A stretch of DNA of 64,000 nucleotides from an uncultured Pelagibacteraceae bacterium (GTDB lineage: Bacteria > Pseudomonadota > Alphaproteobacteria > Pelagibacterales > Pelagibacteraceae): assembly GCA_902622795.1 (NCBI GenBank), contig CACNRD010000001.1, positions 1-64,000 of the forward strand. Reading direction: 5' to 3'. The first letter of the stretch is position 1, and every line of letters starts with the position of its first letter. The notes below the pieces were generated by a model, which did not search any database, had not been told where the DNA came from, and worked only from the letters and a program-made list of their open reading frames with translations. Shown one piece after another: positions 6,736-30,757 of this stretch. The position numbers were made by a program, and so were the translations under genes.

Positions 6736-7499
6736 TATAATATAGATTTACTTTTTAAAATTAGACTTGAGTTTTTTAAATCTGGCTTACCATATAAAAT
6801 CTCATTTCCACTAAAATCAGTAACCTCTCCACCTGCATGATTTAAAATTGCATGACCAGCAGCAATATCCCACTCATAAGCTCTAGGCTCTGCAACATAA
6901 CCATCGTATTCACCTGTTGCAACTACACAAAATTTTAAAGAACTTTTCATTTTAATATTTTCCTCTACTCCTAAATCATTATAAATTTTTTGAATCTCAG
7001 GCTTAATTTTATTTGAGTATGAAATAAATTTAATTCGACCCGTGTTTTTTATAATTGACTCACTGAGATTTAATTCTTTACCGTTTTTAAGTTCATATGC
7101 GTTACCTTCTCCATAAGAGTAAAACATTCTTTTTTTAGCAGGAGCATTAATTAAACCCGCCACTGGTTTATTATCCATTACTAGCCCAGCATTAATTGTA
7201 AATTCTTCTAAATTATTTATGTAATCGTGTGTTCCATCGATTGGATCAATAAGCCAAAAATTTTTTAAATTTGATTTATCTTTATTCTCTGAACTTTCTT
7301 CAGAAATTATGGGAATTTCTGGTGTGATTTTAGATATTTCTTTTGTAATAAGCTTGTTTACTTCTATGTCACCATTGCTCACAGGGGTGTTGTCTGATTT
7401 AATTTTTTTTATTAACCCTTTTGTTCTTAATTCAATAGCTAACTCTCCAGCAATTAAAAAACTTTCAATTAAATCCTTAACTATTTTTTTTAAATCCAT
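6735..7499 (-). CDS. cysQ: 3'(2'),5'-bisphosphate nucleotidase CysQ / inositol-monophosphatase family
   Basis: Metal-dependent phosphatase that removes the 3' phosphate from PAP (and PAPS), preventing build-up of this sulfur-assimilation by-product. At 254 aa it is a normal CysQ length. The signature metal-binding motifs are ISEESS, WLIDPIDGTHDYIN and YEWDIAAGHAIL. Inositol monophosphatase is the alternative, but the TPVSNGDIEVNKLI stretch and the length favour CysQ. It sits three bases downstream of a DUF3553 gene and is coupled to the 47-aa membrane ORF. Confidence 0.88.
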   Translation of the reverse strand: MDLKKIVKDLIESFLIAGELAIELRTKGLIKKIKSDNTPVSNGDIEVNKLITKEISKITPEIPIISEESSENKDKSNLKNFWLIDPIDGTHDYINNLEEFTINAGLVMDNKPVAGLINAPAKKRMFYSYGEGNAYELKNGKELNLSESIIKNTGRIKFISYSNKIKPEIQKIYNDLGVEENIKMKSSLKFCVVATGEYDGYVAEPRAYEWDIAAGHAILNHAGGEVTDFSGNEILYGKPDLKNSSLILKSKSIL

Positions 7500-11402: not shown

Positions 11403-12566
11403 TTGAACAAAAATAAAATTTTAAACGATATTAATTTATCTGCCAAACCCTACGTTATCTACAAAACATCAAATGGGTTTGATTTATTTACAGATTTTTC
11501 AAAAAAAATTATTTTATCAAATAATAATGTTACGAATTTTTTGGAGACAATTTCTTCAAATAAAAAAAAAATCAAAAAAACTGATCTTTATATTGGTTTT
11601 TTTGGCTATGAACTTTTAAACCACCTAATTGGCATTAAATTTCCTAAGCAAAAAACTAACTTTTTTCCTAAGGGAATTTTTTATAAACCTGAAACTTTAA
11701 TAAGTTTAAGTGAAAATTTATCATTTAAAGCCCAGACTACAGATAAAAAAAATAAACAATTTAAAATAAATATTAATAGAAAAAATTATACAAAAATATT
11801 TAATAAGTTTAAAAGAAAAATTAAACAGGGCGAAACTTATCAAATTAAAATTTGCACAAAATATAAAAATAAATCAAAAATAGACCCTCTCGATTTTTTT
11901 TGTCGCCTATCTAAATCAAATCTTGCTCCAGAGGCTTTTTTGATTAAAGATAAAAATTATTCAGTTATCAGCTGTTCACCTGAGACCTTAATTGAGAAAA
12001 AAGGAAGATCAATAATCACTAAACCAATTGCAGGCACCCTTAAGAAAAATACAAGTCTAAATAAAAGTAAAGCTCTTCAATATTTTAGAAAAAACATTAA
12101 AGAAACAAAGGAACATAATATGATTGTTGACATGGAAAGAAATGATTTATCGCGAATTTGTATCCCAGGGTCAGTTAAAATAAAAAAAGAAAAAACTATT
12201 GAGGAATACAAGGATCTTTTTCACTATGTAAGTTTGATAAAAGGTAAGTTGAATAAAAAGGTAAAAACTATTGATATAGTTAAATCAATGATGCCTGGTG
12301 GTTCTGTAATAGGTTGTCCTAAAATAAGCACATTGAATCTCCTAAACAATCAAGAAAAAGAAAATAGAAATATTTATACTGGCAGTTTTGGTTATATTAA
12401 ATTTAATGGAGATATGAGGTTTAATATTATTATACGCTCAATACTTAATTTTAAAAATATTTCAGAAATTTCAGTCGCTTCAGGTGTTGTGATTGATAGT
12501 AATGCTAATCATGAGTTTAATGAAAATTTTATAAAAGCAAAAGCTCTAATAGATTTATTTAAATGA
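11403..12566 (+). CDS. pabB: Aminodeoxychorismate synthase component I (PabB)
   Basis: Chorismate-using enzyme that, with PabA, makes 4-amino-4-deoxychorismate for folate synthesis. It starts at TTG, one base after the MFS stop. At 387 aa it is shorter than E. coli PabB (about 450), with a trimmed N-terminus. Conserved chorismate-binding segments are KPIAGTLKKN, NMIVDMERNDLSRI, MPGGSVIGCPK and YTGSFGYI. The E. coli PIKGT lysine is an alanine here (PIAGT), as in anthranilate synthase. The adjoining pabA and pabC still favour the folate role over tryptophan. Confidence 0.87.
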   Translation: MNKNKILNDINLSAKPYVIYKTSNGFDLFTDFSKKIILSNNNVTNFLETISSNKKKIKKTDLYIGFFGYELLNHLIGIKFPKQKTNFFPKGIFYKPETLISLSENLSFKAQTTDKKNKQFKININRKNYTKIFNKFKRKIKQGETYQIKICTKYKNKSKIDPLDFFCRLSKSNLAPEAFLIKDKNYSVISCSPETLIEKKGRSIITKPIAGTLKKNTSLNKSKALQYFRKNIKETKEHNMIVDMERNDLSRICIPGSVKIKKEKTIEEYKDLFHYVSLIKGKLNKKVKTIDIVKSMMPGGSVIGCPKISTLNLLNNQEKENRNIYTGSFGYIKFNGDMRFNIIIRSILNFKNISEISVASGVVIDSNANHEFNENFIKAKALIDLFK

Positions 12567-13120
12567 TATATGTGATTGATCATAAAGACTCCTTTACTCA
12601 CAACGTAGTTCATCAATTGTCATTATTTGATGAAGTTAGATGTACAAATTATTACGAGATTAATAATCAATATTTAAAAAGAGCATCAACTATTGTTTTA
12701 TCTCCAGGACCTGGTTCACCTAAAGATTATCCAATCACTAGCAATATTTATAAAAATTATAAAGGAAGAAAAAGAATAATAGGTATCTGTTTAGGATTTC
12801 AACAGATATTATACTGTGAAGGAGCAAAAATAGTACAACAAAAACAAATTTATCATGGGTTCCAGTCAAAAATAAAAGTTGTAAGTAAAAATTCTATTTT
12901 TAAAAATAAAAATATTTATAAGGTAGGTCGCTACCATTCTTTAAAGTTGAAAGAACCTTTTTATTCCAAAAATTTTGACATAACCATGAGATGTGATATT
13001 TCAGGTTCAGCAATGGCATTAGAAAATAACATTGATAAAATTTATGGATTTCAATTCCACCCTGAATCTTTTTTAACTGTAAATGGTAACTTACTTATTA
13101 AAAAAATCTTATCAGCTTAA
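12563..13120 (+). CDS. pabA: Aminodeoxychorismate synthase glutamine amidotransferase (PabA)
   Basis: Class I glutamine amidotransferase that delivers ammonia to PabB. The 185-aa length is normal. The active-site motifs are VLSPGPGSPKDYP, the nucleophile Cys in IIGICLGFQQI (usual form GVCLGHQ, here with Phe for His), and the His-Glu pair in YGFQFHPESF. The ATG overlaps the pabB stop by 4 bases (ATGA). TrpG is the alternative, but pabC follows immediately. Confidence 0.9.
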   Translation: MIYVIDHKDSFTHNVVHQLSLFDEVRCTNYYEINNQYLKRASTIVLSPGPGSPKDYPITSNIYKNYKGRKRIIGICLGFQQILYCEGAKIVQQKQIYHGFQSKIKVVSKNSIFKNKNIYKVGRYHSLKLKEPFYSKNFDITMRCDISGSAMALENNIDKIYGFQFHPESFLTVNGNLLIKKILSA

Positions 13121-13850
13121 AGATCTCAAAGAGACAGAATTTCAAGATCTCTGGGGTGATCACGGTGTATTTACAACTATGTGGATTTATGGATCATCTC
13201 CAAAAATTCTTTTCTTTAAAGAGCATATTCAAAATTTATTAAAATCAATAAAAAATTATAAAATTTTTAAATCTTCAATAAAAAAAGATATTAATAAATT
13301 AATTAAAAATAATTTAGATCATAAAAAAAATTATAATCATTTGTTGAGAGTTGCCGTAAACAAAAAAATAATATCAATATCTTTAAGGAAAAGAATTAAA
13401 CCAAAACTTGATTTCAATTTAAAACTTGTAAAATTAAAAAGAGAAAAACCTGAATACAAAAACCTTAAATATAAAGAAATTTTAAAGTATCTTTCAAAAA
13501 TGGATAACTCAAGATCTGATATTGGATTATGTTCAGATGATAAAATATTTGAAACTGGTACATCAAACATCTTTTTTGTAAGAAATAATAAAATATATTC
13601 CCCTGCAAAAAATTGTTATAAAGGTATTACTTATAAATTTTTTGAGTCCAAAGTGAAAAAAATAAATAACAAAGATATAATGATTGATACATTGTCAAAA
13701 TATGATGAAATTATTTTGATAGGTTCAGGCAAAGGTGTTGCCTCTGTAAAGACAGTAGATAAAATTGGATGGAAAAGAAAAAGTTTAAAAACTTTTAATT
13801 TACTAAATAATCATTATTCATTAGCTGCAAAAAAATACCCAAGGTATTAA
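13083..13850 (+). CDS. pabC: Aminodeoxychorismate lyase (PabC), class IV aminotransferase fold
   Basis: PLP enzyme converting aminodeoxychorismate to p-aminobenzoate and pyruvate. The 255-aa length fits. The N-terminal WGDHGVFTTMWIYGSSPKILFFKEHIQNLLKS is the class IV pattern, and the cofactor-binding segment is FETGTSNIFFVRNN. The ATG at 13083 lies 38 bases inside pabA. No ATG, GTG or TTG occurs between it and the WGDHGVF motif, so the long overlap is probably real. It is placed directly after its pathway partners. Confidence 0.85.
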   Translation: MVTYLLKKSYQLKDLKETEFQDLWGDHGVFTTMWIYGSSPKILFFKEHIQNLLKSIKNYKIFKSSIKKDINKLIKNNLDHKKNYNHLLRVAVNKKIISISLRKRIKPKLDFNLKLVKLKREKPEYKNLKYKEILKYLSKMDNSRSDIGLCSDDKIFETGTSNIFFVRNNKIYSPAKNCYKGITYKFFESKVKKINNKDIMIDTLSKYDEIILIGSGKGVASVKTVDKIGWKRKSLKTFNLLNNHYSLAAKKYPRY

Positions 13851-13853
13851 TTG

Positions 13854-14255
13854 ATGATCAAAGACCCAAACAATCCTTGCCTTTTTTGCAATTCTGAAAA
13901 AAGCGGTATTACTTGTGAAAATGAACTAGCATATGCAAGTTACGACACATATCCTGTATCTAATCTTCATTGCCTAATTATCCCCAAAAGGCATCTCAGT
14001 GATTACTTTGATTTAACTAACGATGAGTTAATAGCATGTAATGATCTGATAAAAAAAATAAAGAGTGAAATAACCACAAAAGATAAAACCGTTAAAGCAT
14101 TTAATATTGGAACAAATGCTGGAAAAATTTCAGGCCAATCTATTATGCATTGTCATATTCACCTTATACCCAGAAGAGATGGAGATGTAGAGAATCCCCA
14201 AGGAGGAGTTAGGTCTGTAATTCCTAAAAATCAACACTACAAACGAAAAATATAA
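13854..14255 (+). CDS. HIT family hydrolase
   Basis: Histidine-triad nucleotide hydrolase, 133 aa, likely acting on nucleotide phosphoramidates or dinucleoside polyphosphates. The triad is seen in GQSIMHCHIHLIPRRDGD. CLFCNSEKSG at the N-terminus suggests the zinc-binding subtype. The ORF track uses the TTG at 13851; I chose the adjacent ATG at 13854. It ends the pab operon, three bases after pabC. The exact substrate is unknown. Confidence 0.88.
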   Translation: MIKDPNNPCLFCNSEKSGITCENELAYASYDTYPVSNLHCLIIPKRHLSDYFDLTNDELIACNDLIKKIKSEITTKDKTVKAFNIGTNAGKISGQSIMHCHIHLIPRRDGDVENPQGGVRSVIPKNQHYKRKI

Positions 14256-14367: not shown

Positions 14368-15162
14368 ATGTTAAATACAAATCCATTTTCTGCTTTAGCA
14401 GAGACAGTTTCTCCAGTTGCTATGCAAAGTTTCATTATTGCAATGGTAGTATTAATTGCAGCTGGAACAATTATCCAAATGATTTCTCACAGGAACCTAA
14501 CATATTTTTTTAATAATGCTAAAAAAGCAAAACTTAATGCAACTAAAGAACTAGGTGTGGGGGAAAAAGTATCTATCGTCGCAAAGACGACTGTTTATGA
14601 TATTGGCACTACCTCTGAGCTTGGGTTTGGCAAGAGAAGATTAGCCCATGTACTTGGAATGTATGGTACAATTTTATTTTGGGTTGCATCTGCCGTTTTA
14701 GTTTTTGTCTATACAGGCGTAGAAAAGTCATCTTCAACTATTTGGTCTATGATATGGCATATTGGAGCAATACTAACATGTATTGGTGGATATTGGTTCT
14801 GGTTTTTTTTAAGAGTGGATGTTTCAGCCGAAGCACATCCATGGTACAGAATTATTAAAGCAGACTTATTTGTTTTAGCTCTATTAGCTTGTGCAACGTT
14901 TGGTTTGTTATGGTCATATACTCAGTTCAACGGACAAACCGGATTATCATATTTATTTTTAACTTTATTTGTTGTTTCAAATTTAATTTTATTTGGAGGA
15001 ATTTACTGGTCTAAGTTTGCCCATATGTTTTATAAACCTGGAGCAGCAATTCAAAAAAATTTAGCAGAAGCGGATGGGTCAAGAGATAATCTACCACCAC
15101 CAGCAGACGCACCTGAGCAATTTGGCTTAGGTATAAAAAGAGAAGAGCCAAAACATTATTAA
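14368..15162 (+). CDS. aprM: Adenylylsulfate reductase membrane anchor AprM
   Basis: Integral membrane protein thought to link the APS reductase AprBA to the quinone pool. At 264 aa it has about five hydrophobic segments and a Pro-rich hydrophilic C-terminus (NLPPPADAPEQFGLG). I assign it from its position immediately upstream of aprB-aprA and from the AprM-like arrangement RRLAHVLGMYGTILFWVAS and GGYWFWFFLRVDVSAEAHPWYRI, where several His could bind haem. The aprM-aprB-aprA order is that of sulfur-oxidising bacteria and SAR11. The 112-bp upstream gap holds its promoter, not clearly defined. Confidence 0.85.
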   Translation: MLNTNPFSALAETVSPVAMQSFIIAMVVLIAAGTIIQMISHRNLTYFFNNAKKAKLNATKELGVGEKVSIVAKTTVYDIGTTSELGFGKRRLAHVLGMYGTILFWVASAVLVFVYTGVEKSSSTIWSMIWHIGAILTCIGGYWFWFFLRVDVSAEAHPWYRIIKADLFVLALLACATFGLLWSYTQFNGQTGLSYLFLTLFVVSNLILFGGIYWSKFAHMFYKPGAAIQKNLAEADGSRDNLPPPADAPEQFGLGIKREEPKHY

Positions 15163-15193
15163 TATGATAACAAGAAAAGGAAATAATTAAATT

Positions 15194-15664
15194 ATGTCAA
15201 CTTTTGTATATATGACTAGGTGTGACGGATGTGGTCACTGTGTGGATATTTGTCCTTCAGATATAATGCACATAGACGAAAACATTAGACGTGCAAAAAA
15301 TATAGAACCTAATTTTTGTTGGGAGTGTTACTCATGTGTGAAAGCTTGTCCTAATCACGCTATTGATGTTAGAGGTTATGCTGACTTTGCTCCAATGGGC
15401 CACAGCGTAAGAGTTAGAAGAGAAGAAGAAAAGGGAACAATTTCTTGGAAAATTAAATTTAGAAATGGAACTACTAAAGACTTCGTTTCACCTATAACAA
15501 CAAAACCTTGGGGAAAATTTATCCCTAAGTTGGCTGAGGGTGATAAGCCTAATCAAGGAGAGATTAATTCTCAAAGATTATATACTGAGCCAGAGGGTCT
15601 CAACATTGATGGTGAACTACCTAGTGTTCCAAAAGATTCTTTTAAAAAAGGGGTTTACTATTAA
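15194..15664 (+). CDS. aprB: Adenylylsulfate reductase beta subunit AprB
   Basis: Electron-transfer subunit carrying two [4Fe-4S] clusters. At 156 aa, the cluster motifs are CDGCGHCVDICPSDI (residues 9-23) and CWECYSCVKACPNHAI (about residues 43-58). The C-terminal tail that wraps AprA is present (SWKIKFRNGTTKDFVSPI). Its stop overlaps the aprA start (15664 shared). In this organism the complex probably oxidises sulfite plus AMP to APS. Confidence 0.95.
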   Translation: MSTFVYMTRCDGCGHCVDICPSDIMHIDENIRRAKNIEPNFCWECYSCVKACPNHAIDVRGYADFAPMGHSVRVRREEEKGTISWKIKFRNGTTKDFVSPITTKPWGKFIPKLAEGDKPNQGEINSQRLYTEPEGLNIDGELPSVPKDSFKKGVYY

Positions 15665-17523
15665 TGGCAAAGCATAAAACACACTACGAAGATTGTGATA
15701 TTTTAGTTGTCGGCGGTGGAATGGCGGGTACAGGTGCTACTTTTGAAGCGAGACACTGGGGCAGGGACATGAAAATTGTTTGTGTCGAAAAAGCTAACAT
15801 AGATAGAAGTGGTGCTGTTGCTCAAGGTCTTTATGCAATCAATTGTTATATGGGAATGCAATGGGGTGAAAATCAACCTGAAGATCATGTTCGATATGCA
15901 AGAAATGATTTAATGGGAATGGTAAGAGAAGATTTAGGTTACGACATGGCTCGTCACGTGGATTCTACTGTTCATATGTTCGATGAATGGGGTCTTCCAA
16001 TGATGAAGAACGAGGAAACTGGGAGATATTTAAGAGAAGGAAAATGGCAGATCATGATACATGGTGAAAGTTATAAACCAATTGTTGCAGAGGCAGCAAA
16101 AAAATCTGCAGATAAAATTTATAATAGAATTATGATTACTCATCTTTTGATGGATGAGGCTGAAGAAAATAGAGTTGGTGGTGCTGTTGGATTTAATATG
16201 AGAACTGGAGATTTTCATGTTTTTAGAGCTAAAGCTGTAATTGTTTCAGCGGGTGGTGCTTCACATATATTCAAACCTAGAGCAGTCGGCGAGGGAATGG
16301 GTAGAACATGGTATGCTCCTTGGAGTAACGGTTCAGCTTATGCATTACCAATTGCTGCTGGAGCTAAAATGACTCAGATGGAAAACAGAATTGTGCTATG
16401 TAGATTTAAAGATGGTTATGGTCCGGTTGGTGCATACTTCTTGCACTTAAAAACTTATACACAAAATGCTAATGGCGAAAACTATGAGAAGAAATGGTAC
16501 GATCAAACTAAAGAATTAGTAGGTGAATACATTGATCATCATCCCACTCCAACTTGTTTAAGAAATCATGCATTTATTCAAGAAACTATGGCAGGTGGTG
16601 GACCAATTCAAATGGTTACAACTGAGGCTTTTCAAGATCCACATTTAGAAACTGTAGGTTGGGAAAATTTCTTAGGGATGACAGTTGGTCAGGCTGTAGT
16701 TTGGGCATCTCAAAACATTGATCCAAAATATACAAATCCTGAATTAACAACCTCAGAACCATATGTTATGGGTTCACATGCTACTTGTTCAGGAGCTTGG
16801 GTAAGTGGACCTGAAGATTTATCTCCTCCAGAATATTTCTGGGGATATAATAGAATGCTAACAATTGACGGTCTATTTGGTGCTGGAGACACTGTGGGTG
16901 GAAGTGCACACAAATTTTCTTCTGGATCATTTACAGAAGGTAGATTGGCCGCAAAAGCTGCTGTTAAATATATTGAGGATAAAAAAGCTGAAGGTTTAAA
17001 GGTTTCAGATAAACAATGTGAAGATTTTAAAGATAAGGTTTATAAACCCCTTGAAACTTACAAAGTTGCTCAAAATGAAATAACTGGTGGAACAGTATCC
17101 CCGAGTTATATTTCTCCAATTCAAGGACTTCAACGTTTACAAAGGATTATGGATGAATATGTTGGTGGAATTGCGACTAACTACATGACTAACGCTAATA
17201 TGTTAAAAAGAGGTTTGGAACTTTTGACTTGGCTGGAGGAAGACCTAGAAAATGTTGGAGCTGAGGATTATCATCAACTTATGAGAGCTTGGGAGCTTAA
17301 ACACAGAGCTCTTACATCTCAGTGTGTAACAGAACATACAATGTTTAGAGAAGAAACTAGATGGCCAGGTTATTACTATAGAGGAGATCATATGAAACTT
17401 GATGATGAAAACTGGCACTGTTTAACAGTTTCTAGAAGAGATCCTAAGACAGGTAAATTTAGTCTTGAGAAAGTTCCTGTTTACCATATCGTGGATGAGA
17501 ACGAGAAGAAAAAAGCCTCTTAA
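15664..17523 (+). CDS. aprA: Adenylylsulfate reductase alpha subunit AprA
   Basis: FAD-containing catalytic subunit interconverting APS and sulfite plus AMP. The 619-aa length is normal. The dinucleotide-binding motif is ILVVGGGMAGTGATFEARHW. The region MTQMENRIVLCRFKDGYGP and the motif VMGSHATCSGAWVSGPEDL carry the arginine and histidine that contact APS in characterised AprA. The FAD C-terminal motif is GLFGAGDTVGGSAHKFSSGS. A dissimilatory sulfate-reducing role is unlikely, since no dsrAB is visible in this window and the lineage is aerobic. Confidence 0.96.
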   Translation: MAKHKTHYEDCDILVVGGGMAGTGATFEARHWGRDMKIVCVEKANIDRSGAVAQGLYAINCYMGMQWGENQPEDHVRYARNDLMGMVREDLGYDMARHVDSTVHMFDEWGLPMMKNEETGRYLREGKWQIMIHGESYKPIVAEAAKKSADKIYNRIMITHLLMDEAEENRVGGAVGFNMRTGDFHVFRAKAVIVSAGGASHIFKPRAVGEGMGRTWYAPWSNGSAYALPIAAGAKMTQMENRIVLCRFKDGYGPVGAYFLHLKTYTQNANGENYEKKWYDQTKELVGEYIDHHPTPTCLRNHAFIQETMAGGGPIQMVTTEAFQDPHLETVGWENFLGMTVGQAVVWASQNIDPKYTNPELTTSEPYVMGSHATCSGAWVSGPEDLSPPEYFWGYNRMLTIDGLFGAGDTVGGSAHKFSSGSFTEGRLAAKAAVKYIEDKKAEGLKVSDKQCEDFKDKVYKPLETYKVAQNEITGGTVSPSYISPIQGLQRLQRIMDEYVGGIATNYMTNANMLKRGLELLTWLEEDLENVGAEDYHQLMRAWELKHRALTSQCVTEHTMFREETRWPGYYYRGDHMKLDDENWHCLTVSRRDPKTGKFSLEKVPVYHIVDENEKKKAS

Positions 17524-17543
17524 AATTTAAATTACAAATAAAT

Positions 17544-17894
17544 ATGGATATTTTATCTAAAACTGATGATGAAATATATGAATTAGCCAAACCAATTTGG
17601 GATAATTTAGTAAAATCATCTAATCTTAAAGATTATGGAGGATTTACAAGGGATTTCTCTACTCAGATGCTTTTTGGAGCAAATGAAGTTGAATTAGGTA
17701 AACAGTGGGCAAACAATAAATTAATTGTAAATTTAAAGGAAACTTTTGAACCTTTTGGATGCTTAAGACGAGGGGATCACGTAACAGTTTTGATAAAACA
17801 AACGAACAAGGAGCTACCTGGTGAGTTCTTAGGTAGATTAGTTCTAGGTGTGGAAGATAATCTTGTCAAAGTTTATGGGGCAACAATTTATTAA
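17544..17894 (+). CDS. Conserved unknown protein linked to aprBA
   Basis: A 116-aa soluble protein 20 bp after aprA and probably in the same transcript. I do not recognise the family. It starts MDILSKTDDEIYELAKPIWDN, has no membrane helix or signal, and carries a single Cys in FEPFGCLRRGDHVTV. The mixed alpha-beta composition and acidic N-terminus suggest a small binding or accessory protein. The position suggests assembly or regulation of APS reductase, but this is inference. Confidence 0.7.
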   Translation: MDILSKTDDEIYELAKPIWDNLVKSSNLKDYGGFTRDFSTQMLFGANEVELGKQWANNKLIVNLKETFEPFGCLRRGDHVTVLIKQTNKELPGEFLGRLVLGVEDNLVKVYGATIY

Positions 17895-17923
17895 AAAAAA
17901 ATTGACATAAATTAAATAATTAT

Positions 17924-17951
17924 TTGACAAATTTTTTAGTGGGTGTAATGA
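17924..17951 (+). promoter_or_regulatory. Possible promoter upstream of the 44-aa peptide / tauE
   Basis: TTGACA (17924-17929) with TAATGA (17946-17951) at a 16-bp spacer, in the gap after the apr operon. A second TTGACA lies at 17902-17907. If used, transcription would start only a few bases before the 17960 ATG, giving a near-leaderless message. Weak support. Confidence 0.3.
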
Positions 17952-17959
17952 CGAGATAA

Positions 17960-18094
17960 ATGCACCTTTCAGAAATAAAAATTTTTAATAAACTTCCCAG
18001 ATTAAAATCATCATATATTAAAGTAGGTATTTTAATGAGTTTACTTGCATACTGGGGTGTAATTTTAGTTGGAACTTTTGTTACTTTTAACTAA
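17960..18094 (+). CDS. 44-aa membrane peptide upstream of TauE/SafE (not in ORF track)
   Basis: The frame encodes MHLSEIKIFNKLPRLKSSYI followed by one hydrophobic helix (about residues 21-42: KVGILMSLLAYWGVILVGTF) and a stop. The basic N-terminus followed by the helix suggests a single-pass inner-membrane protein. It lies 31 bp before the sulfite exporter gene and may be its small accessory subunit. No family is recognised. Confidence 0.6.
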   Translation: MHLSEIKIFNKLPRLKSSYIKVGILMSLLAYWGVILVGTFVTFN

Positions 18095-18125
18095 GTTATT
18101 TTTAACCCGTATTTTTTAAGTTTAT

Positions 18126-19205
18126 ATGGAAGTCTTTTTACCAATCGCACAAGTATTTGTTAATCCTATAGAAATACTATTATTAAGTGCAATAGTTGGA
18201 GTTTTATCAGGATTATTTGGAGTTGGAGGTGGGTTTTTAATGACACCTTTTTTAATTTTTTTAGGTATTCCCCCTGCTTATGCAGTTGCAAATGAAGCAA
18301 ATAATATTTTAGCCACCTCAGTATCTGGATCAACTACATACTATTTAAAAAATATTTTGGATTATAAAATGGGTTTTATGATAGTTATTGGTGGAGCTAT
18401 CGGCACCACGTTAGGAATTTATACATTCACATATTTTAAAGGTATTGGAAAAATAGATACGGTAATTTCACTAGCTTATATGTATATACTTGCAATCATT
18501 GGAACTCTGATGCTAGTGGAAAGTTTGAGAGAAATTGATCAAGCAAAGAGACATGTTTTAGCAAAAAAAAAAGCTCACGTCCATTACTGGATACATGGCC
18601 TTCCTCTAAGAATGAGATTTCCAAAATCAAAGTTATATGAAAGTATCTTCACCCCAATTATAATTGGTCTGATTGTCGGATTTATTGCAGCAATTATGGG
18701 AATTGGTGGAGCTTTTATTTTAGTTCCAGCAATGATTTATATAATAAAGATGCCAACAAAATTAGTTCCTGGAACTTCTTTATTTGTGACTATTTTTGTA
18801 AGTGTAATAGTAACTTTCTTACATTCGTTCAACTATGGTTCAATAGATTTGTTGTTAGTTCTTATGTTGGTTATTGGTTCAATAGTGGGTGTGCAGCTTG
18901 GACAAAAACTTGGTGAAAGAATTGATAGTTCAGGACTCAGAGCTTTGCTTGCAGTTCTTCTTTTAATTGTAGGTATAGCTATTGCATACGATACTTTTTT
19001 TGCAGACGAAGTTATAAATGGAACTACAATATCAGTAAAATCAGATTTAAATTTTTTCTCTAGATTTATTATAGACTTTTCAAAAGAGATGCCTTTCTTT
19101 TATGGTCTATTCTCAATTATGTTTGCTATCATTTTAGGAGTAGCTGCAGCTTTTTTAAGACGATTTATTTCAAATCTAAAAGGTAAAATTTTTATTAAAT
19201 CTTAA
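18126..19205 (+). CDS. tauE: TauE/SafE (TSUP) family sulfite/anion exporter
   Basis: Membrane carrier of the TSUP family, 359 aa with about eight helices. The paired family repeats are SAIVGVLSGLFGVGGGFLMT near residue 22 and GLIVGFIAAIMGIGGAFILV near residue 180, each with the glycine-rich signature. A hydrophilic loop around residues 120-165 separates the halves. Some family members export sulfite or sulfoacetate, and the apr/suy/xsc neighbours make sulfite the likely substrate. The stop is shared with convergent yeiH through TTAA. Confidence 0.88.
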   Translation: MEVFLPIAQVFVNPIEILLLSAIVGVLSGLFGVGGGFLMTPFLIFLGIPPAYAVANEANNILATSVSGSTTYYLKNILDYKMGFMIVIGGAIGTTLGIYTFTYFKGIGKIDTVISLAYMYILAIIGTLMLVESLREIDQAKRHVLAKKKAHVHYWIHGLPLRMRFPKSKLYESIFTPIIIGLIVGFIAAIMGIGGAFILVPAMIYIIKMPTKLVPGTSLFVTIFVSVIVTFLHSFNYGSIDLLLVLMLVIGSIVGVQLGQKLGERIDSSGLRALLAVLLLIVGIAIAYDTFFADEVINGTTISVKSDLNFFSRFIIDFSKEMPFFYGLFSIMFAIILGVAAAFLRRFISNLKGKIFIKS

Positions 19206-20302
19206 AATAAAAATTGTTTAATAGTTTCAATATATATTAAGCTTATAATTCCAACAGTTACTGCAGCAATTAAACCTACAATAAATGGTTTATAACCCAT
19301 TGACCTAAGCTCACCTAGATTAATTGAAATTCCTACAGCTGCCATAGCCATCGTTAAAAATACTGTCGTTAGAATTTTTAGATATTCTATAAATTTTAAC
19401 CAATTATAAAAATTATTATTTTCAGTTGAAAAAAATTGATCACCTAAGTTTCTAACAATTATCATGCCAATAAATCCAATCACAAAATAAGGAAAAATAC
19501 TAAATATAGAGTATTTTTTATCTTTAACCTCACCTCTGTTGTATAAATAGGCAAATAAAGGAATAAGTATTACTAAAAAAGTATTCCTAATAAGCTTTGT
19601 TACTGTTGCAACATCTAATGTTTCTGGATTGTTAAACTGCTGATCATAAATTAATCCAGCAGCAGCTACTTGTGAAGTTTCATGTATTGAAGTACCAAGA
19701 AATAAACCAGCCTCAAGGGCGTTGTCATTAAAATACCATTCTGCAAAATATGGATAAATCAGCATCGCAATTACTCCAAATAACGTAATATTAGCAATAG
19801 CATAAGCAATCTCAGTTTTTTTGGCATTTATCACAGGAGCAGTAGCAACTATTGCTGTTGCTCCGCAAACACTCGTACCAATTGCTATGAGATAAGACAT
19901 TTTTGAAGATATAGGAACTTTTTTTATAAGTAGTTTTATTAAAACTAAAACTCCTAATATACAAAATATTACTAATGGTATTGCAATTGATCCAAATTTA
20001 ATCAAATCAGAAAAACTTAATCTTATTCCTAAAAAAATTATTCCTAATTTCAAAATATATTGCTGGGTAAAATCTAAACCTATCATCATGCTAGGTCTGG
20101 GAGTAAATGCATTACCCATTATAATTCCGAGCAATATGGCTATTAGAACTGTTGAAATTGGGCTTTTAGCTGTTCCAAAAATTTCTACAGCTAAGACGTT
20201 GTTAATACCTTGAGAAAATAAACAAAATACTAATGCTAAACCAACTCCTGGTATAATTGACTTTAGATATTGATAGTTAACAGGCACAAAAAATTTATGC
20301 AC
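19202..20302 (-). CDS. yeiH: YeiH/UPF0324 family membrane protein, putative sulfate/sulfite exporter
   Basis: A 366-aa protein with about ten membrane segments. Family-typical motifs are [40 protein letters not shown]-like sequence near residue 145, and [14 protein letters not shown] near residue 205. Members of this family recur in sulfonate-degrading clusters and are proposed to export sulfite or sulfate, but direct evidence is limited. It overlaps suyB by 8 bases, forming the suyA-suyB-yeiH operon, which supports the exporter idea. Confidence 0.87.
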
Positions 20303-21461
20303 TTCTGTAGAGCTTGGTCATCACAAATTCTTTGTGACCTAAAGCCTCTGCACAAGTCAATCTTCCGTTAGCTACCCTTAAAGTTGTTTTGATTAATTCA
20401 TCTCCAGCTTGAGACATATTCATTTCACGTGTTAAAATTTTTGAAACATCACAATCAATATGTTCACCCATTCCTTTTACTGTCAAAGGATTTGCAGTTA
20501 ATTTAACAACTGGTTCAATTGGATTTCCAACAATATTACCTTGGCCTGTGGGGAATAAATGGATATTAAAACCTGCTGCTGCTTGAAGTGTTACACATTC
20601 AGCCGCAGCTGAAGAAGTATCCATAAAATACAAACCTTTTCCTTTAGTAGGTTCTTCCGCAGGTTCAAGAACATCAATAAATTTACAGTTTCCAATCTTT
20701 TGAAAATTTCCAAATGCTTTTTCTTCAATTGTTGTAAGTCCACCAGCTATATTTCCTGCAGTAGGTTGACTTTCAGAAAGATCATCTGTTGCTTCTTTTA
20801 AAATAAAATCATTATAATTATTCCAAGTATTCATAAATTTCTCTGAAGCTTCTTTTGTAGCACCTCTTGTAGCACAAACTTTTTCAGCTCCTGTAAGCTC
20901 TGACGTTTCACCAAAACACAAATGAACACCTAATGGCTCTAATTTATCCATCAAATTTCCAACTGTTGGATTTGCTGCTAAACCTGATGTAGTGTCAGAC
21001 TCTCCACACTTAACTGATATCCATAAATCACTTAAAGGACATTCTTCTCTTTGTTTTTCAGAGGCCCACATCACAAATTCTTGTGCTTTTTTTGAGGCTT
21101 TCATCGTTGTACCGATGTCTCCAGTTCTTTCGATATGAAATCCTTCAACTGGTTTCCCAGTTTTTGCAATTCCATCTACAATTTTTTTAGTCCATTTAGG
21201 TTCAATTCCAATTACAATCACCGCTGCAACATTTGGGTTACAACCAGTACCAATCATTGTTCTAAAATGAAGTTCTAAATCAGCTCCAAATTGAAGTCTT
21301 CCATAAGAATGTGGGAGTGCAATTGTCCCTTTAATATTGTTTGCTACAGCTTCAGCACATGCATTTGAAATGTCATCAACAGGAAGGATAATAACATGAT
21401 TCCTTGTACCTGCTCTGCCGTTTTCTCTTTTATAACCTAAAAAACTTTTTGGTATTTCCAT
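20295..21461 (-). CDS. suyB: (R)-sulfolactate sulfo-lyase large subunit SuyB (UxaA family)
   Basis: Large subunit of the enzyme splitting sulfolactate to pyruvate and sulfite. At 388 aa it matches SuyB and the C-terminal part of altronate/galactarate dehydratases. Landmarks are [36 protein letters not shown] and [19 protein letters not shown]. The conserved Cys residues would bind a metal or cluster. Altronate dehydratase is the alternative, but the separate small subunit, xsc next door and the exporter downstream favour the sulfonate role. Confidence 0.82.
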
Positions 21462-21465
21462 TAGA

Positions 21466-21750
21466 TTACCACTTTTTTGTTTTTACATTGTGAACATGAA
21501 CATGCTCACCTTTTTTTGTTGATTTCACAACTTTACCAATATCATGGCCATATTTTAAAATTGTATCACCCTTATTAAGATCAGTCATAGCAATTTTATG
21601 ACCTAAGGGTATTTCATCTAATGATTGTATATTTACTGTGCTATCATCCTCCATTATCCAGCAAGAACAATCTTGCTTTGGAGTGATTTTTTCTATTACT
21701 ACTACGCCCACATTGTCTTTCTTGTCGTGAATAATAATATCTGTGGCCAT
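21466..21750 (-). CDS. suyA: (R)-sulfolactate sulfo-lyase small subunit SuyA (SAF domain)
   Basis: A 94-aa SAF-domain subunit. The segment [22 protein letters not shown], then [20 protein letters not shown], is the family pattern, with the conserved IPLGHKIA region. It precedes suyB by four bases, and the two chains correspond to the split halves of the UxaA family. The start lies 113 bp from the divergent xsc start, so the regulatory region is shared. Confidence 0.83.
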
Positions 21751-21863
21751 ATATAGTGTCGATTTGTTTGTTTGAATTTTCTGAAATCTTATATATTAAT
21801 CGCTAAAATTAACAAATGAATTTTAATAGCATAAAATTTACACATTAGAGAGGTTCTTGTTTT

Positions 21864-23648
21864 ATGACAAAAATGACAACAGAAGAAGCTTTTGTAAAAG
21901 TTTTACAAATGCATGGAATTGAACACGCCTTTGGAATTATTGGTTCAGCCTTTATGCCAATTTCAGATATTTTTCCAGATGCTGGCATCACATTCTGGGA
22001 TGTTGCTCATGAAACGAATGGTGGATTAATTGCAGATGGTTACACAAGAGCTACAGGAAAAATGTCAATGGTTATTGCTCAGAATGGTCCTGGAATTACA
22101 GGATTGGTAACACCAATTAAAACAGCTTATTGGAATCATACTCCACTTTTACTAGTTACACCTCAAGCTGCTAACAAAACTATGGGTCAAGGTGGCTTTC
22201 AAGAAGTCGAACAAATGAATTTATTTAAAGATATGGTTTGTTATCAAGAGGAAGTTAGAGACCCATCTAGAATGGCAGAAGTATTAAATAGAGTTATAGA
22301 AAAAGCTATAAGAGGATCAGCTCCAGCACAAATCAATGTACCAAGAGATTATTGGACACAAGTTATTGATATTGATCTTCCACCAATTGTTAGATTAGAA
22401 AGACAAGCTGGTGGTGTTGATGCAATTAAAAAAGCTGCAGACTTATTATCTAATGCAAAATTTCCAGTTATTTTATCTGGAGCAGGTGTTGTTATTGGAG
22501 GTGCTATTGAAGATTGTAAAAAACTTGCAGAAAAACTAGACGCTCCAGTTTGTTCTGGTTATCAACATAATGATAGTTTTCCAGGAAGTCATCCTCTAGC
22601 GGCAGGACCTTTAGGTTACAATGGTTCAAAAGCTGGGATGGAATTAATTAAACAAGCAGATGTTGTTTTAGCATTAGGAACAAGATTAAATCCGTTTTCA
22701 ACTTTACCAGGTTATGGAATGGATTATTGGCCAAAAGATGCAAGTATTATTCAAGTAGATATGAACTCTGATCGTATTGGCTTAACTAAAAAAGTCTCAG
22801 TAGGAATTTGTGGTGATGCTAAACTAGTTGCTCAACAATTGCTTGCTCAACTTTCTCCAACAGCGGGCGACAAAGATAGACAAAAAAGAAAGGATATAAT
22901 TCATCAAACTAAATCTGCATGGTTACAAAAATTATCTAGTCTTGATCATGAAGATGATGACGATGGAACAGTTTGGAATAAAGAGGCAAGAGAAAGAGAC
23001 TCTGACAGAATGTCTCCAAGACAAGCTTGGAGAGCAATTCAAGCTGGTATGCCTGAGGATGTAATTATTTCAAGTGATATTGGAAATAATTGTGCAATTG
23101 GAAACGCTTATCCAACATTTGAAAAAGGAAGAAAGTATCTAGCTCCAGGATTATTTGGTCCTTGTGGATACGGTTTTCCTTCGATTTTGGGTGCAAAAAT
23201 TGGCTGTCCAGATACACCCGTAATTGGTTTTGCAGGTGACGGAGCCTTTGGTATTAGCATGAATGAAATGAGTTCATGCGCAAGAGAAGAATGGCCTTCA
23301 ATAACAATGGTAATATTTAGAAATTATCAATGGGGAGCAGAAAAAAGAAATTCTATCTTATGGTTTGATGATAATTTTGTTGGAACTGAACTTGATCCAG
23401 AACTTAGCTATGCAAAAGTAGCTGATGCTTGCGGTTTAAAAGGAGTAACAGTTAAAACAATGGAAGAAACTACCAATGCTATCAAGCAATCTTGCGATGA
23501 TCAAAAGAAGGGAATCACAACATTTATTGAAGTAATTTTAAATCAAGAGCTTGGCGAACCATTTAGACGAGATGCGATGAAAAAACCAGTTAGGGTTGCT
23601 GGTATTAAAAAAGAAGATATGAAGAAACAGCCTTCTTTAAGTTCTTAA
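21864..23648 (+). CDS. xsc: Sulfoacetaldehyde acetyltransferase Xsc
   Basis: ThDP-dependent enzyme that turns sulfoacetaldehyde and phosphate into acetyl phosphate and sulfite, the common end step of taurine, isethionate and sulfoacetate breakdown. The 594-aa length is typical. The N-terminal MTTEEAFVKVLQMHGIEHAF and GIIGSAFMPISDIFPDAGIT are characteristic of Xsc rather than acetolactate synthase. The ThDP motif is GDGAFGISMNEMSSC. GAGAGG is the likely ribosome binding site. Pta and the upstream transaminase or dehydrogenase are not in the window. Confidence 0.95.
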   Translation: MTKMTTEEAFVKVLQMHGIEHAFGIIGSAFMPISDIFPDAGITFWDVAHETNGGLIADGYTRATGKMSMVIAQNGPGITGLVTPIKTAYWNHTPLLLVTPQAANKTMGQGGFQEVEQMNLFKDMVCYQEEVRDPSRMAEVLNRVIEKAIRGSAPAQINVPRDYWTQVIDIDLPPIVRLERQAGGVDAIKKAADLLSNAKFPVILSGAGVVIGGAIEDCKKLAEKLDAPVCSGYQHNDSFPGSHPLAAGPLGYNGSKAGMELIKQADVVLALGTRLNPFSTLPGYGMDYWPKDASIIQVDMNSDRIGLTKKVSVGICGDAKLVAQQLLAQLSPTAGDKDRQKRKDIIHQTKSAWLQKLSSLDHEDDDDGTVWNKEARERDSDRMSPRQAWRAIQAGMPEDVIISSDIGNNCAIGNAYPTFEKGRKYLAPGLFGPCGYGFPSILGAKIGCPDTPVIGFAGDGAFGISMNEMSSCAREEWPSITMVIFRNYQWGAEKRNSILWFDDNFVGTELDPELSYAKVADACGLKGVTVKTMEETTNAIKQSCDDQKKGITTFIEVILNQELGEPFRRDAMKKPVRVAGIKKEDMKKQPSLSS

Positions 23649-27502: not shown

Positions 27503-27642
27503 ATATTAGAACCTTTATAAGTGAAAATTTTTTTTTTTGTAATAAATCTGAACAAAAAAATTGCAAATACCAATATTAGCACTTGTTTTGGATTTCAATA
27601 TTTGAGAAGCTTTATTTTTTAAAAATAACGAGAGGGAAAATA

Positions 27643-28737
27643 ATGAAAAAAATCATTTCAATGTTATTTGCAGTTGCAATGGTATTTGGGTTTATTTCAA
27701 ATGCTAATGCTGCAAAAACACTAAAATGTCAGACAGTTCTTAACACTAAAGCTGATGAAGTTAAGATGTTAAAGGATTTTACTGACACTGTTACAACTTT
27801 AACAGCTGGATCTCTAAAGTTTGAAATTTTACCTGCAGGAGCTGTTGTTGGTGTAAAAGAAACTTTAGATGCAGTTGATAAAGGTCTAATCGATTGTGGT
27901 TTCGCGTGGACTCACTATTGGTCAGGTGATCATCCTGCTGCTATGTTATTTGGTTCGCCAGTAGCTGGTGGTGGTGTAGGTATTGATAATATCGCATTCT
28001 TATCTTGGTTTCAATATGGTGGTGGTAAAGAACTATACGACCAACTATGGAAAGAAATGGGAAGAGACATTAAAGGATTTATGATTCAACCAGTTGGACC
28101 AGAAGCTTTAGGTTGGTTTCCAAAACCAATTAAAGATATGGCTGACTTTAGAAAATATAAATTCAGAACTCCTCCAGGAATTCCAGGACAAACTTATAAA
28201 GATATTGGTATAGCATCTGTAGCTATGGGCGGTGGAGACATTCTACCAGCTTTGGAAGCAGGTACAATTGATGCTGCTGAATGGTGTTGTCCAAAACCAG
28301 ACTTAACTTTTGGTTTCCAAAAAGTATTAAAGCACTACTACTTACAAGGTTTACACCAAGTAGTCGTAAATGCTGACTTTTATATTACTGGAAAAACTTA
28401 CAATGCAATGTCTGATCATGAGAAGAAGTCTCTTGAAGTAGCTGCTAATGCCTCATTAGCAAAATCTTTAAGTTACAGAATCTATGAAAATGGTAAAGCT
28501 TTAAGAGAGTTAACTACTAAACATGGAGTAATCTTAGAAGATACACCTTCTGATTATTTCACAGAATACATGGCTGCTGCAAAAGCATCTTTGAACAAGA
28601 ATGCTGCAGAGAACAAATTTTTCAATGAAGTTTATAATTCAATGAAAGACTTTGCTGATATTGCTGTTCCATTCTGGAGTGGTGCTCAAATGTCAAATGC
28701 GAAGCTAGGAATGGCTCACGCAGCAACATTAAAGTAA
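27643..28737 (+). CDS. dctP: TRAP transporter substrate-binding protein DctP
   Basis: Periplasmic solute receptor of 364 aa. The ATG at 27643 (MKKIISMLFAVAMVFGFISN) gives a clear signal peptide and has an AGAGGG ribosome binding site; the track start 20 codons earlier does not. The ligand-anchor region is KFRTPPGIPGQTYKDIG, with the Arg that usually binds a carboxylate. The sequence resembles the 2-oxoacid/mannitol-type TakP branch. The downstream hairpin probably keeps its mRNA level above that of the membrane subunits. Confidence 0.93.
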   Translation: MKKIISMLFAVAMVFGFISNANAAKTLKCQTVLNTKADEVKMLKDFTDTVTTLTAGSLKFEILPAGAVVGVKETLDAVDKGLIDCGFAWTHYWSGDHPAAMLFGSPVAGGGVGIDNIAFLSWFQYGGGKELYDQLWKEMGRDIKGFMIQPVGPEALGWFPKPIKDMADFRKYKFRTPPGIPGQTYKDIGIASVAMGGGDILPALEAGTIDAAEWCCPKPDLTFGFQKVLKHYYLQGLHQVVVNADFYITGKTYNAMSDHEKKSLEVAANASLAKSLSYRIYENGKALRELTTKHGVILEDTPSDYFTEYMAAAKASLNKNAAENKFFNEVYNSMKDFADIAVPFWSGAQMSNAKLGMAHAATLK

Positions 28738-28761
28738 TCAGTAATTAATCTTAAATTATAT

Positions 28762-28798
28762 AATTAGAGCGGACTTAATTGTCCGCTCTAATTTTTTT
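28762..28798 (+). terminator. Intrinsic terminator/attenuator between dctP and dctQ
   Basis: AATTAGAGCGGAC (28762-28774) pairs over 13 bp with GTCCGCTCTAATT (28781-28793) around TTAATT, followed by a run of T. It lies 25 bases after the dctP stop. The dctQ ATG at 28812 lies 19 bases beyond the stem, so partial read-through is expected. Confidence 0.85.
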
Positions 28799-28811
28799 TG
28801 ATAGAATTTAT

Positions 28812-29426
28812 ATGGCAGACGAACCAACTAAATTAGATATATCTGATGAAATGATTGCCGAAAGGCGAGGTGGTTCAGGTAAAATGCCAGAAGATATGCC
28901 ATCATGGATGGCAAGCTCTATAGTTAATATTGATAAATTTAGTAAATGGGTCGGTAATGTTGTTTGCTGGATTTTAATGCCTTTAATTTTTGCGATGACT
29001 TATGAGGTGCTTGCAAGAAAATTATTTTTAGCACCAACAATTTGGGCTTACGATATAAGTCGTTTTTTGTATGGAGCATTATTCATGCTGGGTGCTGCAT
29101 ACGCTCTCTCTAAAGGTGTACATATAAGAGCTGATTTTTTATATAGAAATTTTAAAACTAAAAATCAAGGTAAGATAGATTTCTGGTTGTATCTTTTATT
29201 TTATTTTCCAGGATTATTAGTTTTCCTTTATATGACAATCGGATTTGTTGGAGAGTCTATTCAAAGAGGTGAGAAAGGTATGGACACTACATGGATGCCT
29301 TATATGTGGCCTATCAAATCTTGTTTATTGATTGGAATTGTTTTTTTATTAATTCAAGGAATTTCAGAGTTATTTAAAAGTTATTGGGCTGCCACTAAAG
29401 GTGAATGGCCTGGAGAAGAAAAATGA
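28812..29426 (+). CDS. dctQ: TRAP transporter small permease DctQ
   Basis: Small four-helix membrane subunit, 204 aa. I chose the ATG at 28812 (MADEPTKLDIS) because the track start at 28779 lies inside the upstream terminator. The typical DctQ pattern is visible: IWAYDISRFLYGALFMLGAAYAL with a conserved acidic/Arg pair. A hydrophilic N-terminal extension of about 45 residues precedes the first helix. The stop overlaps the dctM start. Confidence 0.9.
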   Translation: MADEPTKLDISDEMIAERRGGSGKMPEDMPSWMASSIVNIDKFSKWVGNVVCWILMPLIFAMTYEVLARKLFLAPTIWAYDISRFLYGALFMLGAAYALSKGVHIRADFLYRNFKTKNQGKIDFWLYLLFYFPGLLVFLYMTIGFVGESIQRGEKGMDTTWMPYMWPIKSCLLIGIVFLLIQGISELFKSYWAATKGEWPGEEK

Positions 29427-30757
29427 TTGCTGAACTTATAGATCCAGCTATTTTAGGTTTTATTCTTGTAGGGGTAATGCTTTTTGCTATCTTTGTTGGT
29501 TTTCCGATTTCATTTACATTAATTTTTTTAGGATTTGTTTTTGGTTATTTAGGTTTTGGTAAGCTAGTATTTTATCTAATGACCCTCCAATTTTCGATGG
29601 TCATGACCGAACAAACACTCGCAGCTGTGCCGCTCTTCGTCTTTATGGGGATAATGATGGAGCAAGCAGGTTTGATGGAGAGATTATTTTCTTCATTCCA
29701 AATGATGTTAGCAAAAGTAAAAGGATCTTTATATTATGCAGTATTATTTGTTTCTGTGATTTTTGCTGCAGCAACAGGAATCGTTGGTGCTTCAGTTACA
29801 ATTTTGGGAATTATGGCTGCTAAGTCAATGAATAGATCAGGATATGACGTAAGGTTAGCAGCAGGAACTATAACTGCTGGAGGGACTTTAGGGATATTAA
29901 TACCTCCAAGCATTATGCTTGTTGTCATGGGACCCATCATGGAAATTCCAGTAATCGATTTATTTGCTGCTGCTATAATTCCAGGAATTCTTCTTGCAAG
30001 TTTATATGCTGGTTACACCACAATCAGATGTATGATTAATCCAAAATTAGGCCCTGTTCTGCCAGAGGAAATGCGAGCTGCTAGCATGAAAGAAGTATGG
30101 GTTGAATTTTTTTTGGGATTAGTTCCACCTGCAGCTTTAGTTTTTGCTGCTTTAGGAAGTATTTTGTTTGGTTTTGCTACACCAACAGAAGCAGCAGGTT
30201 GTGGTGCAATGGGGGCTTTACTTCTTTCGATTGCATATAGAAAGTTAACACTTCCAAAATTACAAGATGCGTTAGTTAAGACTTTAGAGATTACTGCCTT
30301 AATAATGGTTTTAGTAGCTGCCTCAAACTTTTTTGGAGCAGTTTTTGCAAGATTAGGCACTCCAACTTTATTAACAGAGTTTTTATTAGGTCTAGAAATG
30401 AATAAGTACTTAATTTTAGCCATGATAATGGTGATGATTTTTTTGTTGGGATGGCCATTGGAATGGGTACCAATCGTTATGATTATAGTGCCAATCATAT
30501 TACCTTTAGTTGAGGCTTTAGGTTTTAACCTAACTTGGTTTGCAATTCTGGTTGCAGTAAATTTACAAACCGCCTGGCTCTCACCACCTGTAGCTCTTTC
30601 TGCTTATTTTCTTAAAGGTGTAGTGCCTGAATGGGATTTAAAAGATATTTACTATGGTATGATGCAATTTATGGTTCTTCAGGTAATTGGTTTAGTTTTA
30701 ATTATTATTTTCCCTAAAATTGCTCTCTGGTTACCAACTCTCTTATATGGACAGTAG
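29423..30757 (+). CDS. dctM: TRAP transporter large permease DctM
   Basis: Large sodium-coupled translocation subunit, 444 aa and about 12 helices. The ATG at 29423 overlaps the dctQ stop (ATGA) and has GGAGAAG upstream, so it is preferred over the 29405 track start. Signatures are AAVPLFVFMGIMMEQAG, GTLGILIPPSIMLVVMG and GFATPTEAAGCGAMGALLL. The ligand is unknown; the GMC oxidoreductase and two SDR genes nearby suggest an organic or hydroxylated compound. Confidence 0.93.
   Translation: MIAELIDPAILGFILVGVMLFAIFVGFPISFTLIFLGFVFGYLGFGKLVFYLMTLQFSMVMTEQTLAAVPLFVFMGIMMEQAGLMERLFSSFQMMLAKVKGSLYYAVLFVSVIFAAATGIVGASVTILGIMAAKSMNRSGYDVRLAAGTITAGGTLGILIPPSIMLVVMGPIMEIPVIDLFAAAIIPGILLASLYAGYTTIRCMINPKLGPVLPEEMRAASMKEVWVEFFLGLVPPAALVFAALGSILFGFATPTEAAGCGAMGALLLSIAYRKLTLPKLQDALVKTLEITALIMVLVAASNFFGAVFARLGTPTLLTEFLLGLEMNKYLILAMIMVMIFLLGWPLEWVPIVMIIVPIILPLVEALGFNLTWFAILVAVNLQTAWLSPPVALSAYFLKGVVPEWDLKDIYYGMMQFMVLQVIGLVLIIIFPKIALWLPTLLYGQ

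Follow-up and report, generated by a model that had tools for sequence, protein, structure and literature searches.

The stretch of DNA analysed here (the window) comprises 64,000 nucleotides of an uncultured Pelagibacteraceae bacterium of the SAR11 group (contig CACNRD010000001.1, positions 1 to 64,000; the 1.02-Mb genome assembly, GCA_902622795.1, is 83.9% complete). At 14368-23648, from the first base of aprM to the last base of xsc, it holds genes for adenosine 5'-phosphosulfate (APS) reductase, two sulfite-releasing enzymes and two candidate exporters. In SAR11 sulfonate catabolism this block is probably the unit for desulfonation and for disposal of sulfite: electrons, and not ATP made by ATP sulfurylase (Sat), would be the gain, and a histidine triad (HIT) protein encoded next to aprM would be the leading candidate for consuming APS.

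Genes of the block

A first-pass annotation, made from the letters alone, had placed aprM-aprB-aprA, TauE, YeiH, SuyAB and Xsc together, and a check of open reading frames located every one of them there. It overlooked two genes, HIT and P4. In the list below, family models are those of NCBIfam (AprB, AprA, Xsc) and Pfam (TauE, YeiH, SuyB), with curated cut-offs.

13851-14255, plus strand: HIT-family protein, 134 amino acids, histidine triad HCHIHLI (PF01230, 71.2 bits)
14368-15162, plus strand: aprM, membrane partner of APS reductase (partial QmoC match, 3.2e-5; directly 5' of aprBA)
15194-15664, plus strand: aprB, APS reductase beta subunit (TIGR02060, 186.8 bits, cut-off 135.65)
15664-17523, plus strand: aprA, APS reductase alpha subunit (TIGR02061, 983.5 bits, cut-off 641.75)
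17544-17894, plus strand: P4, conserved protein of 116 amino acids (no Pfam or NCBIfam match)
18126-19205, plus strand: TauE/SafE (TSUP) family anion exporter, putative substrate sulfite (PF01925, 155.5 bits, cut-off 32.6)
19202-20302, minus strand: YeiH, putative sulfite or sulfate exporter, downstream of suyB (PF03601, Cons_hypoth698, 228 bits, cut-off 24.5)
20295-21461, minus strand: suyB, (2R)-sulfolactate sulfo-lyase large subunit (66-69% identity to SuyB of plasmid operons)
21466-21750, minus strand: suyA, (2R)-sulfolactate sulfo-lyase small subunit (49% identity to SuyA of a plasmid operon)
21864-23648, plus strand: xsc, sulfoacetaldehyde acetyltransferase (TIGR03457, 965.6 bits, cut-off 676.4)

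HIT ends 112 bp before aprM begins, and P4 begins 20 bp after the end of aprA. Because suyA, suyB and yeiH all lie on the minus strand, with a gap of 4 bp between the first two and an overlap of 8 bp between the last two, they look like a single operon. The gene xsc is divergent from suyA across a gap of 113 bp (21751-21863), and a TATATATTAA-like core recurs here in relatives. Across 84 loci this interval measures 62-123 bp and the core is kept; it is possibly a shared promoter or operator.

Inheritance of the block

Of 147 genomes of the family, 68 carry aprA, 67 carry xsc and 67 carry suyB. Presence or absence of aprA agrees with that of xsc in 138 of the 147 (both present in 63, both absent in 75, discordant in 9) and with that of suyB in 139 (63, 76 and 8, respectively); these counts take genomes as they stand and are not corrected for shared ancestry. 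Where the genes share a contig they also lie close together: within 10 kb for aprA and xsc (57 of 60 pairs) and for aprA and suyB (58 of 61), and within 4 kb for xsc and suyB (61 of 61). Such near-unit inheritance excludes chance. The first-pass annotation had staked its reading on co-inheritance of apr, suy and xsc across related genomes, and over the family they are co-inherited.

The order metC-MFS-pabB-pabA-pabC-HIT-aprM-aprB-aprA-P4-tauE-(yeiH)-suyB-suyA-xsc recurs through the window's genus and in 80 contigs named as Pelagibacteraceae; the named sequences that best match the P4 locus of the window all come from single-cell or metagenome assemblies of this family, which places the genome in SAR11. 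In G018, an apr-less relative (98% complete), the fetched stretch reads metC-MFS-CADD-nucleotidyltransferase-tauE-...-M23, so that aprMBA-P4 and HIT-suyBA-xsc are both gone, one from each side of a retained tauE. Taken together, co-occurrence, proximity and this paired loss are the pattern of a functional unit that is gained or lost jointly.

Some copies look broken: aprA has in-frame stops or split matches in G110 and G121, as has xsc in G116, G121 and G050, through either faulty assembly or a block in decay.

Proposed sulfite oxidation without ATP sulfurylase

The scheme that we consider builds on gene identities, co-inheritance, the absence of Sat in a profile search and the conserved placement of HIT and P4. 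SuyAB would cleave (2R)-sulfolactate, formed from 2,3-dihydroxypropane-1-sulfonate (DHPS), to pyruvate and sulfite, and Xsc would convert sulfoacetaldehyde, from taurine or isethionate, to acetyl phosphate and sulfite. The sulfite could leave the cell through the TauE-type exporter and, in some strains, YeiH, if these carry the substrates predicted for them. Alternatively, AprBA would join it to AMP to give APS, the two electrons being passed on, presumably through AprM and probably to the quinone pool. Removal of APS by means other than Sat would be needed to pull the reaction. The HIT protein is a candidate for this step, which would yield sulfate with either AMP (hydrolysis) or ADP (phosphorolysis), and P4 would be a dedicated Apr accessory. 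In its most specific form, a Sat-free AMP-dependent oxidation in which the HIT enzyme, helped by an Apr-specific P4, turns APS into sulfate and AMP or ADP while sulfite from DHPS, taurine and isethionate feeds respiration, the scheme is put forward tentatively.

AprB has eight cysteines (C10, 13, 16, 20, 42, 45, 48 and 52) in two C-x2-C-x2-C-x3-C motifs, in keeping with a pair of [4Fe-4S] clusters. AprM has a weak resemblance to QmoC and matched no Pfam family. Its gene lies directly 5' of aprBA, both here and at most apr loci of Alphaproteobacteria (the lineage I arrangement); His94 and His219 are among the residues at least 95% conserved over 37 AprM sequences. In 20 SAR11 apr stretches AprBA-AprM is nearly universal within the block, and AprMBA together with P4 nearly constant.

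A profile search with PF01747 found no ATP sulfurylase in 21 of 22 family genomes, the window's own (83.9% complete) included: none in 11 of the 12 same-genus genomes searched, and none in 20 of the 21 genomes other than the window's. AprBA without ATP sulfurylase has been reported in SAR11 before (PMC5069961), as has the lack of the enzyme in most of the group (PMC10356861), and AprBA has been proposed to serve there in sulfite detoxification (PMC5069961). With Sat absent, the usual conversion of APS to ATP is not possible: of the two halves of the classical pathway, SAR11 retains the first but not the second, which yields ATP. This lack also argues against AprBA working in the reductive direction. 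The first-pass annotation had proposed that sulfonates yield energy through sulfite oxidation. What stands is a gain of at most two electrons per sulfite through AprBA, the limit being set by the lack of Sat; ATP from APS does not. Phosphorolysis by the HIT enzyme would in addition conserve one ADP for every sulfite, whereas hydrolysis would lose that bond energy.

A HIT-family candidate for APS removal

The HIT gene is tied to apr by both occurrence and placement. Counting strong matches (E < 1e-25), we found it in 40 of 68 SAR11 genomes with apr and in 0 of 79 without, and in 39 of the 40 it lies within 6 kb of aprA. In each of the 68 named loci that extend far enough it immediately precedes aprM; in genera g3 and g4 it lies instead within the suyA-suyB operon. 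A tree of HIT proteins puts the aprM-side and suyAB-side groups in separate clades, both apart from Hint-type paralogues, a topology compatible equally with one moved gene and with two separate acquisitions. The triad is intact (H99, H101 and H103 are invariant). Outside the family the subfamily is rare (9 of about 287 genomes in a class-wide draw). The unrelated alphaproteobacterium G382 has it in the arrangement sat ... aprB-aprA-CxxCxxCC protein-HIT-xsc-pta-GMC oxidoreductase. This cluster (L222, 3145-13825) is apparently a sulfoacetaldehyde-to-sulfate island.

Some enzymes of the superfamily act on APS: according to studies that PMC7072326 and PMC8704414 describe or cite, Fhit proteins release AMP from it, and Hint4 and DcpS both hydrolyse and phosphorolyse it. 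On the basis of its restriction, within SAR11, to genomes with apr, its two placements, the G382 cluster and these activities, we regard the HIT protein as the leading but unproven candidate for an APS-consuming enzyme, be it hydrolase or phosphorylase. We found no earlier report of an apr-HIT link in the openly accessible literature searched.

Several points weigh against this assignment. The gene is missing from 28 of the 68 genomes with apr, and at least one of these, G027, also lacks Sat; it is therefore not a universal answer. In the window's genus HIT abuts pabC and lies 105-119 bp from aprM, so it may be transcribed with the pab genes; in G010, G416 and G321 it stands beside a crotonase gene, and G382 holds both Sat and HIT. 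Finally, sulfate excretion from taurine has not been shown for cultured SAR11 (PMC10356861).

In the strongest rival, HIT is a bystander, a general nucleotide hydrolase, and APS is removed by a Hint-type paralogue, by a CysC-like kinase with CysQ, or slowly, export then being the main route for sulfite. Hint-type paralogues are widespread, the window genome has both a CysC-like kinase (contig C4) and CysQ (6735-7499), and HIT adjoins other genes elsewhere, besides being missing from the 28 genomes. Against the rival stand the occurrence of HIT in SAR11 only with apr, its two places in the block and its position between aprBA and xsc in the unrelated G382; the kinase/nucleotidyltransferase pair is not tied to apr. 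We consider this rival a serious possibility, though the less likely one.

That pair, a CysC-like kinase and a HIGH-type nucleotidyltransferase of about 125 amino acids, was considered as a 'mini ATP sulfurylase'. It lies upstream of aprM in genera g3, g4, g6, g8 and g10 and on another contig in the window genome. We rejected it as the principal consumer of APS on two grounds: the nucleotidyltransferase is still there in genomes that have lost apr (G018, genus g2), and its best curated matches are nicotinamide mononucleotide adenylyltransferases.

Other observations on these genes may be recorded. Kinase and nucleotidyltransferase are fused in g2 and g6 and stand beside a crotonase gene in the window's genus (G000:C4; L103, 7395-8176); they are also seen in L039, L040 and other stretches. 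In G010 the positions look swapped, with HIT next to the crotonase gene and the pair at the apr locus. Proteins of about 330 amino acids (L113, 4452-5444; L221, 9920-10909; L225, 3098-4096) carry the same HIT domain with an extension; those in L113 and L221 are close to a DNA methyltransferase-like gene. The extended proteins perhaps represent a form of the family that is mobile or belongs to defence islands.

A conserved gene after aprA

P4 directly follows aprA in 19 of the 20 SAR11 stretches. A homologue with 43% identity does so in G431 and G339, which belong to another family. P4 has no Pfam, NCBIfam or PDB sequence match, and a structural model, for which close homologues alone were usable, reached a predicted local distance difference test score of 62 and gave no confident match in a fold search. 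By its position after aprA we take P4 to be a putative dedicated partner or accessory of Apr.

It is conceivable that P4, and not HIT, consumes APS or hands it over, as enzyme or adaptor. Besides its constancy in SAR11, P4 occurs in G431 and G339, where no sat appears in the fetched part of the apr locus, and no P4 was seen in loci that do show sat. The protein has no recognisable family or fold, however, and a factor for Apr assembly or electron transfer would fit equally well; we judge such a role for P4 improbable.

Very improbable is the canonical, energy-conserving route with ATP made by Sat. AprBA and AprM are present, and sat is the usual neighbour in other Alphaproteobacteria, where it falls within the fetched stretch at 14 of 20 apr loci (15 of 21 with G382). 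Against this, the window genome and 20 of 21 others gave no Sat match, as both studies cited above report for most SAR11, and the sole match in the 22 family genomes (G074; L114, 6081-7103) is not near apr; it lies in a polysaccharide-type island, where the enzyme perhaps serves sulfated glycans.

Sources of sulfite

Two sulfite-releasing enzymes had been claimed for the block, and both assignments hold. Xsc, above its family cut-off, is up to 80% identical to annotated xsc. SuyB consists of the Pfam domains GD_AH_second and GD_AH_C and is 66.5% identical to the protein of an annotated plasmid operon (TRAP-hisD(hpsN)-SDR(hpsO)-ADH(hpsP)-suyA-suyB-Ldh-sulfate exporter) and 69% identical to a second plasmid copy; the next sampled plasmid matches fall to 38%, and altronate dehydratases to about 28-32%. 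By this gap in identity, rather than by a tree, the two-subunit enzyme is nearer SuyAB than altronate dehydratases, and the grouping with the latter that would have undone the first-pass reading is not seen. By these comparisons SuyAB and Xsc are genuine. A reading of SuyAB as sugar-acid (altronate/galactarate) dehydratases, which would overturn the sulfonate interpretation, is scarcely credible, for although Pfam and NCBIfam place them in that superfamily, the identity gap, the separate SuyA subunit and the co-occurrence with HpsN described below all speak against it.

With HpsN of the plasmid operon as query, an orthologue (54-59% identity) was found in 16 of 17 genomes with apr and in 0 of 5 without, which hold only a HisD-like match of about 35% (Fisher p 2e-4; the Fisher tests ignore shared ancestry and are descriptive only). 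In the window genome hpsN lies at a second locus (C4:27281-28552), in the company of a taurine/sulfonate-type ABC transporter, an Ldh_2 protein closest to L-sulfolactate dehydrogenase and an adjoining gene of the PTA/PTB phosphotransacetylase family; proteins of this locus score under the equivalog cut-offs of the closest specific models, and their exact substrates are predictions. Activity of SAR11 HpsO, HpsP and HpsN on DHPS has been measured (PMC11131964). In G006, G036 and G052, orthologues of the window's tripartite ATP-independent periplasmic (TRAP) transporter (76-93% identity) lie directly 5' of hpsN, which suggests that the window TRAP system carries a sulfonate.

The proposal of a C2/C3 sulfonate module is thus borne out by the identity of SuyAB, the co-inheritance of apr, suy and xsc, the HpsN orthologue, the PTA/PTB and Ldh_2 (sulfolactate dehydrogenase family) proteins and the taurine-type ABC transporter. 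Among the partner genes that it had been suggested to seek elsewhere in the genome, the PTA/PTB and Ldh_2 genes are there but sat was not found.

Export and other routes for sulfite

The first-pass annotation also named two exporter candidates of different families. Both Pfam models, PF01925 and PF03601, are matched above cut-off, but YeiH falls under the TIGR00698 cut-off (160.5 against 232.6 bits), so that 'sulfate exporter' would hold at family level only. The same exporter family adjoins suyAB in the plasmid DHPS operon (26% identity). The presence of both disposal routes beside the release enzymes, true of the window, is not general: YeiH occurs in 8 of the 20 apr stretches, spread over the family.

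A SoeABC-type sulfite oxidase was considered and rejected. Seven of the genomes checked (the window's own, G000, and G003, G051, G093, G113, G036 and G052) each gave one molybdopterin oxidoreductase match, of NuoG size and inside the Nuo cluster, so no SoeA-type enzyme is present to explain sulfite disposal there; SorA-type enzymes were not searched.

Neighbouring genes

6735-7499, minus strand: CysQ-like 3'(2'),5'-bisphosphate nucleotidase (193.8 bits, under the cut-off of 228.8)
11403-13850: pabB-pabA-pabC, para-aminobenzoic acid synthesis, 5' of HIT and apr in the window's genus
27583-30757, plus strand: TRAP transporter, three genes, probable sulfonate transporter by its orthologues directly 5' of hpsN

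The CysQ-like gene stands about 7 kb from aprM, though these genomes are without sulfate assimilation. In genera g3, g4, g6 and g8 a CADD-family protein (TIGR04305, 301.8 bits, cut-off 200) takes the place of pabB-pabA-pabC at the same site, as seen upstream of aprM in stretches L034-L036 and L038-L040; this is apparently a non-orthologous replacement in folate precursor synthesis.

Relation to known systems

With lineage-I AprBA-AprM systems that include Sat (e.g., Allochromatium vinosum) the block shares the order aprM-aprB-aprA, the predicted pair of [4Fe-4S] clusters in AprB and an AprA above cut-off. It differs in having P4 after aprA and HIT before aprM, in the absence of Sat from the genome, and in its connection to a sulfonate pathway instead of one for inorganic sulfur. 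The Roseobacter-type DHPS operon, hpsKLM-hpsNOP-suyAB-(comC/slcC)-sulfate exporter, shares SuyB (66%), SuyA (49%), a YeiH-type exporter beside suyAB and an HpsN orthologue in the genome, but in SAR11 the genes are scattered over several loci and sulfite would pass to AprBA instead of a molybdenum sulfite dehydrogenase. In the taurine-to-sulfate pathway of 'Ca. Taurinisymbion ianthellae' (tauABC, tpa, xsc, aprAB, sat) sulfite from Xsc likewise enters AprBA; the symbiont has Sat and a Qmo complex, whereas SAR11 has AprM and no Sat. Fhit, Arabidopsis Hint4 and C. elegans DcpS share the HIT domain and intact histidine triad with the SAR11 protein, which belongs to a bacterial subfamily linked to apr, suy and xsc genes and is a candidate for the same activity on APS.

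Much of this picture, including the gene content and a role for AprBA in sulfite disposal in SAR11, is already published (PMC5069961, PMC10356861, PMC11131964, PMC12636525). The passages found in the last of these place suyAB and xsc, together with aprAB, in the core or near-core gene set, the same genes in the same bacteria, and the detoxification proposal (PMC5069961) holds the same idea of sulfite disposal. To this gene content we add co-inheritance, paired loss, the linkage of HIT and P4, and the contrast in Sat with other Alphaproteobacteria. The HIT link appears to be new, and the Sat-free, HIT/P4-linked arrangement looks like a new variant.

Implications

SAR11 ranks among the ocean's most abundant groups of bacteria, and DHPS and taurine are major compounds that connect bacteria with phytoplankton. 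That SAR11 has AprBA but no Sat was on record by 2016 at the latest, and the question it raises is the fate of APS and the energy yield. Linkage of HIT and P4 supplies two concrete candidate genes that bear on whether sulfite becomes sulfate with a gain of energy or is only exported. If the former is true, sulfonate-derived sulfite would feed electrons into respiration in the ocean's commonest heterotroph.

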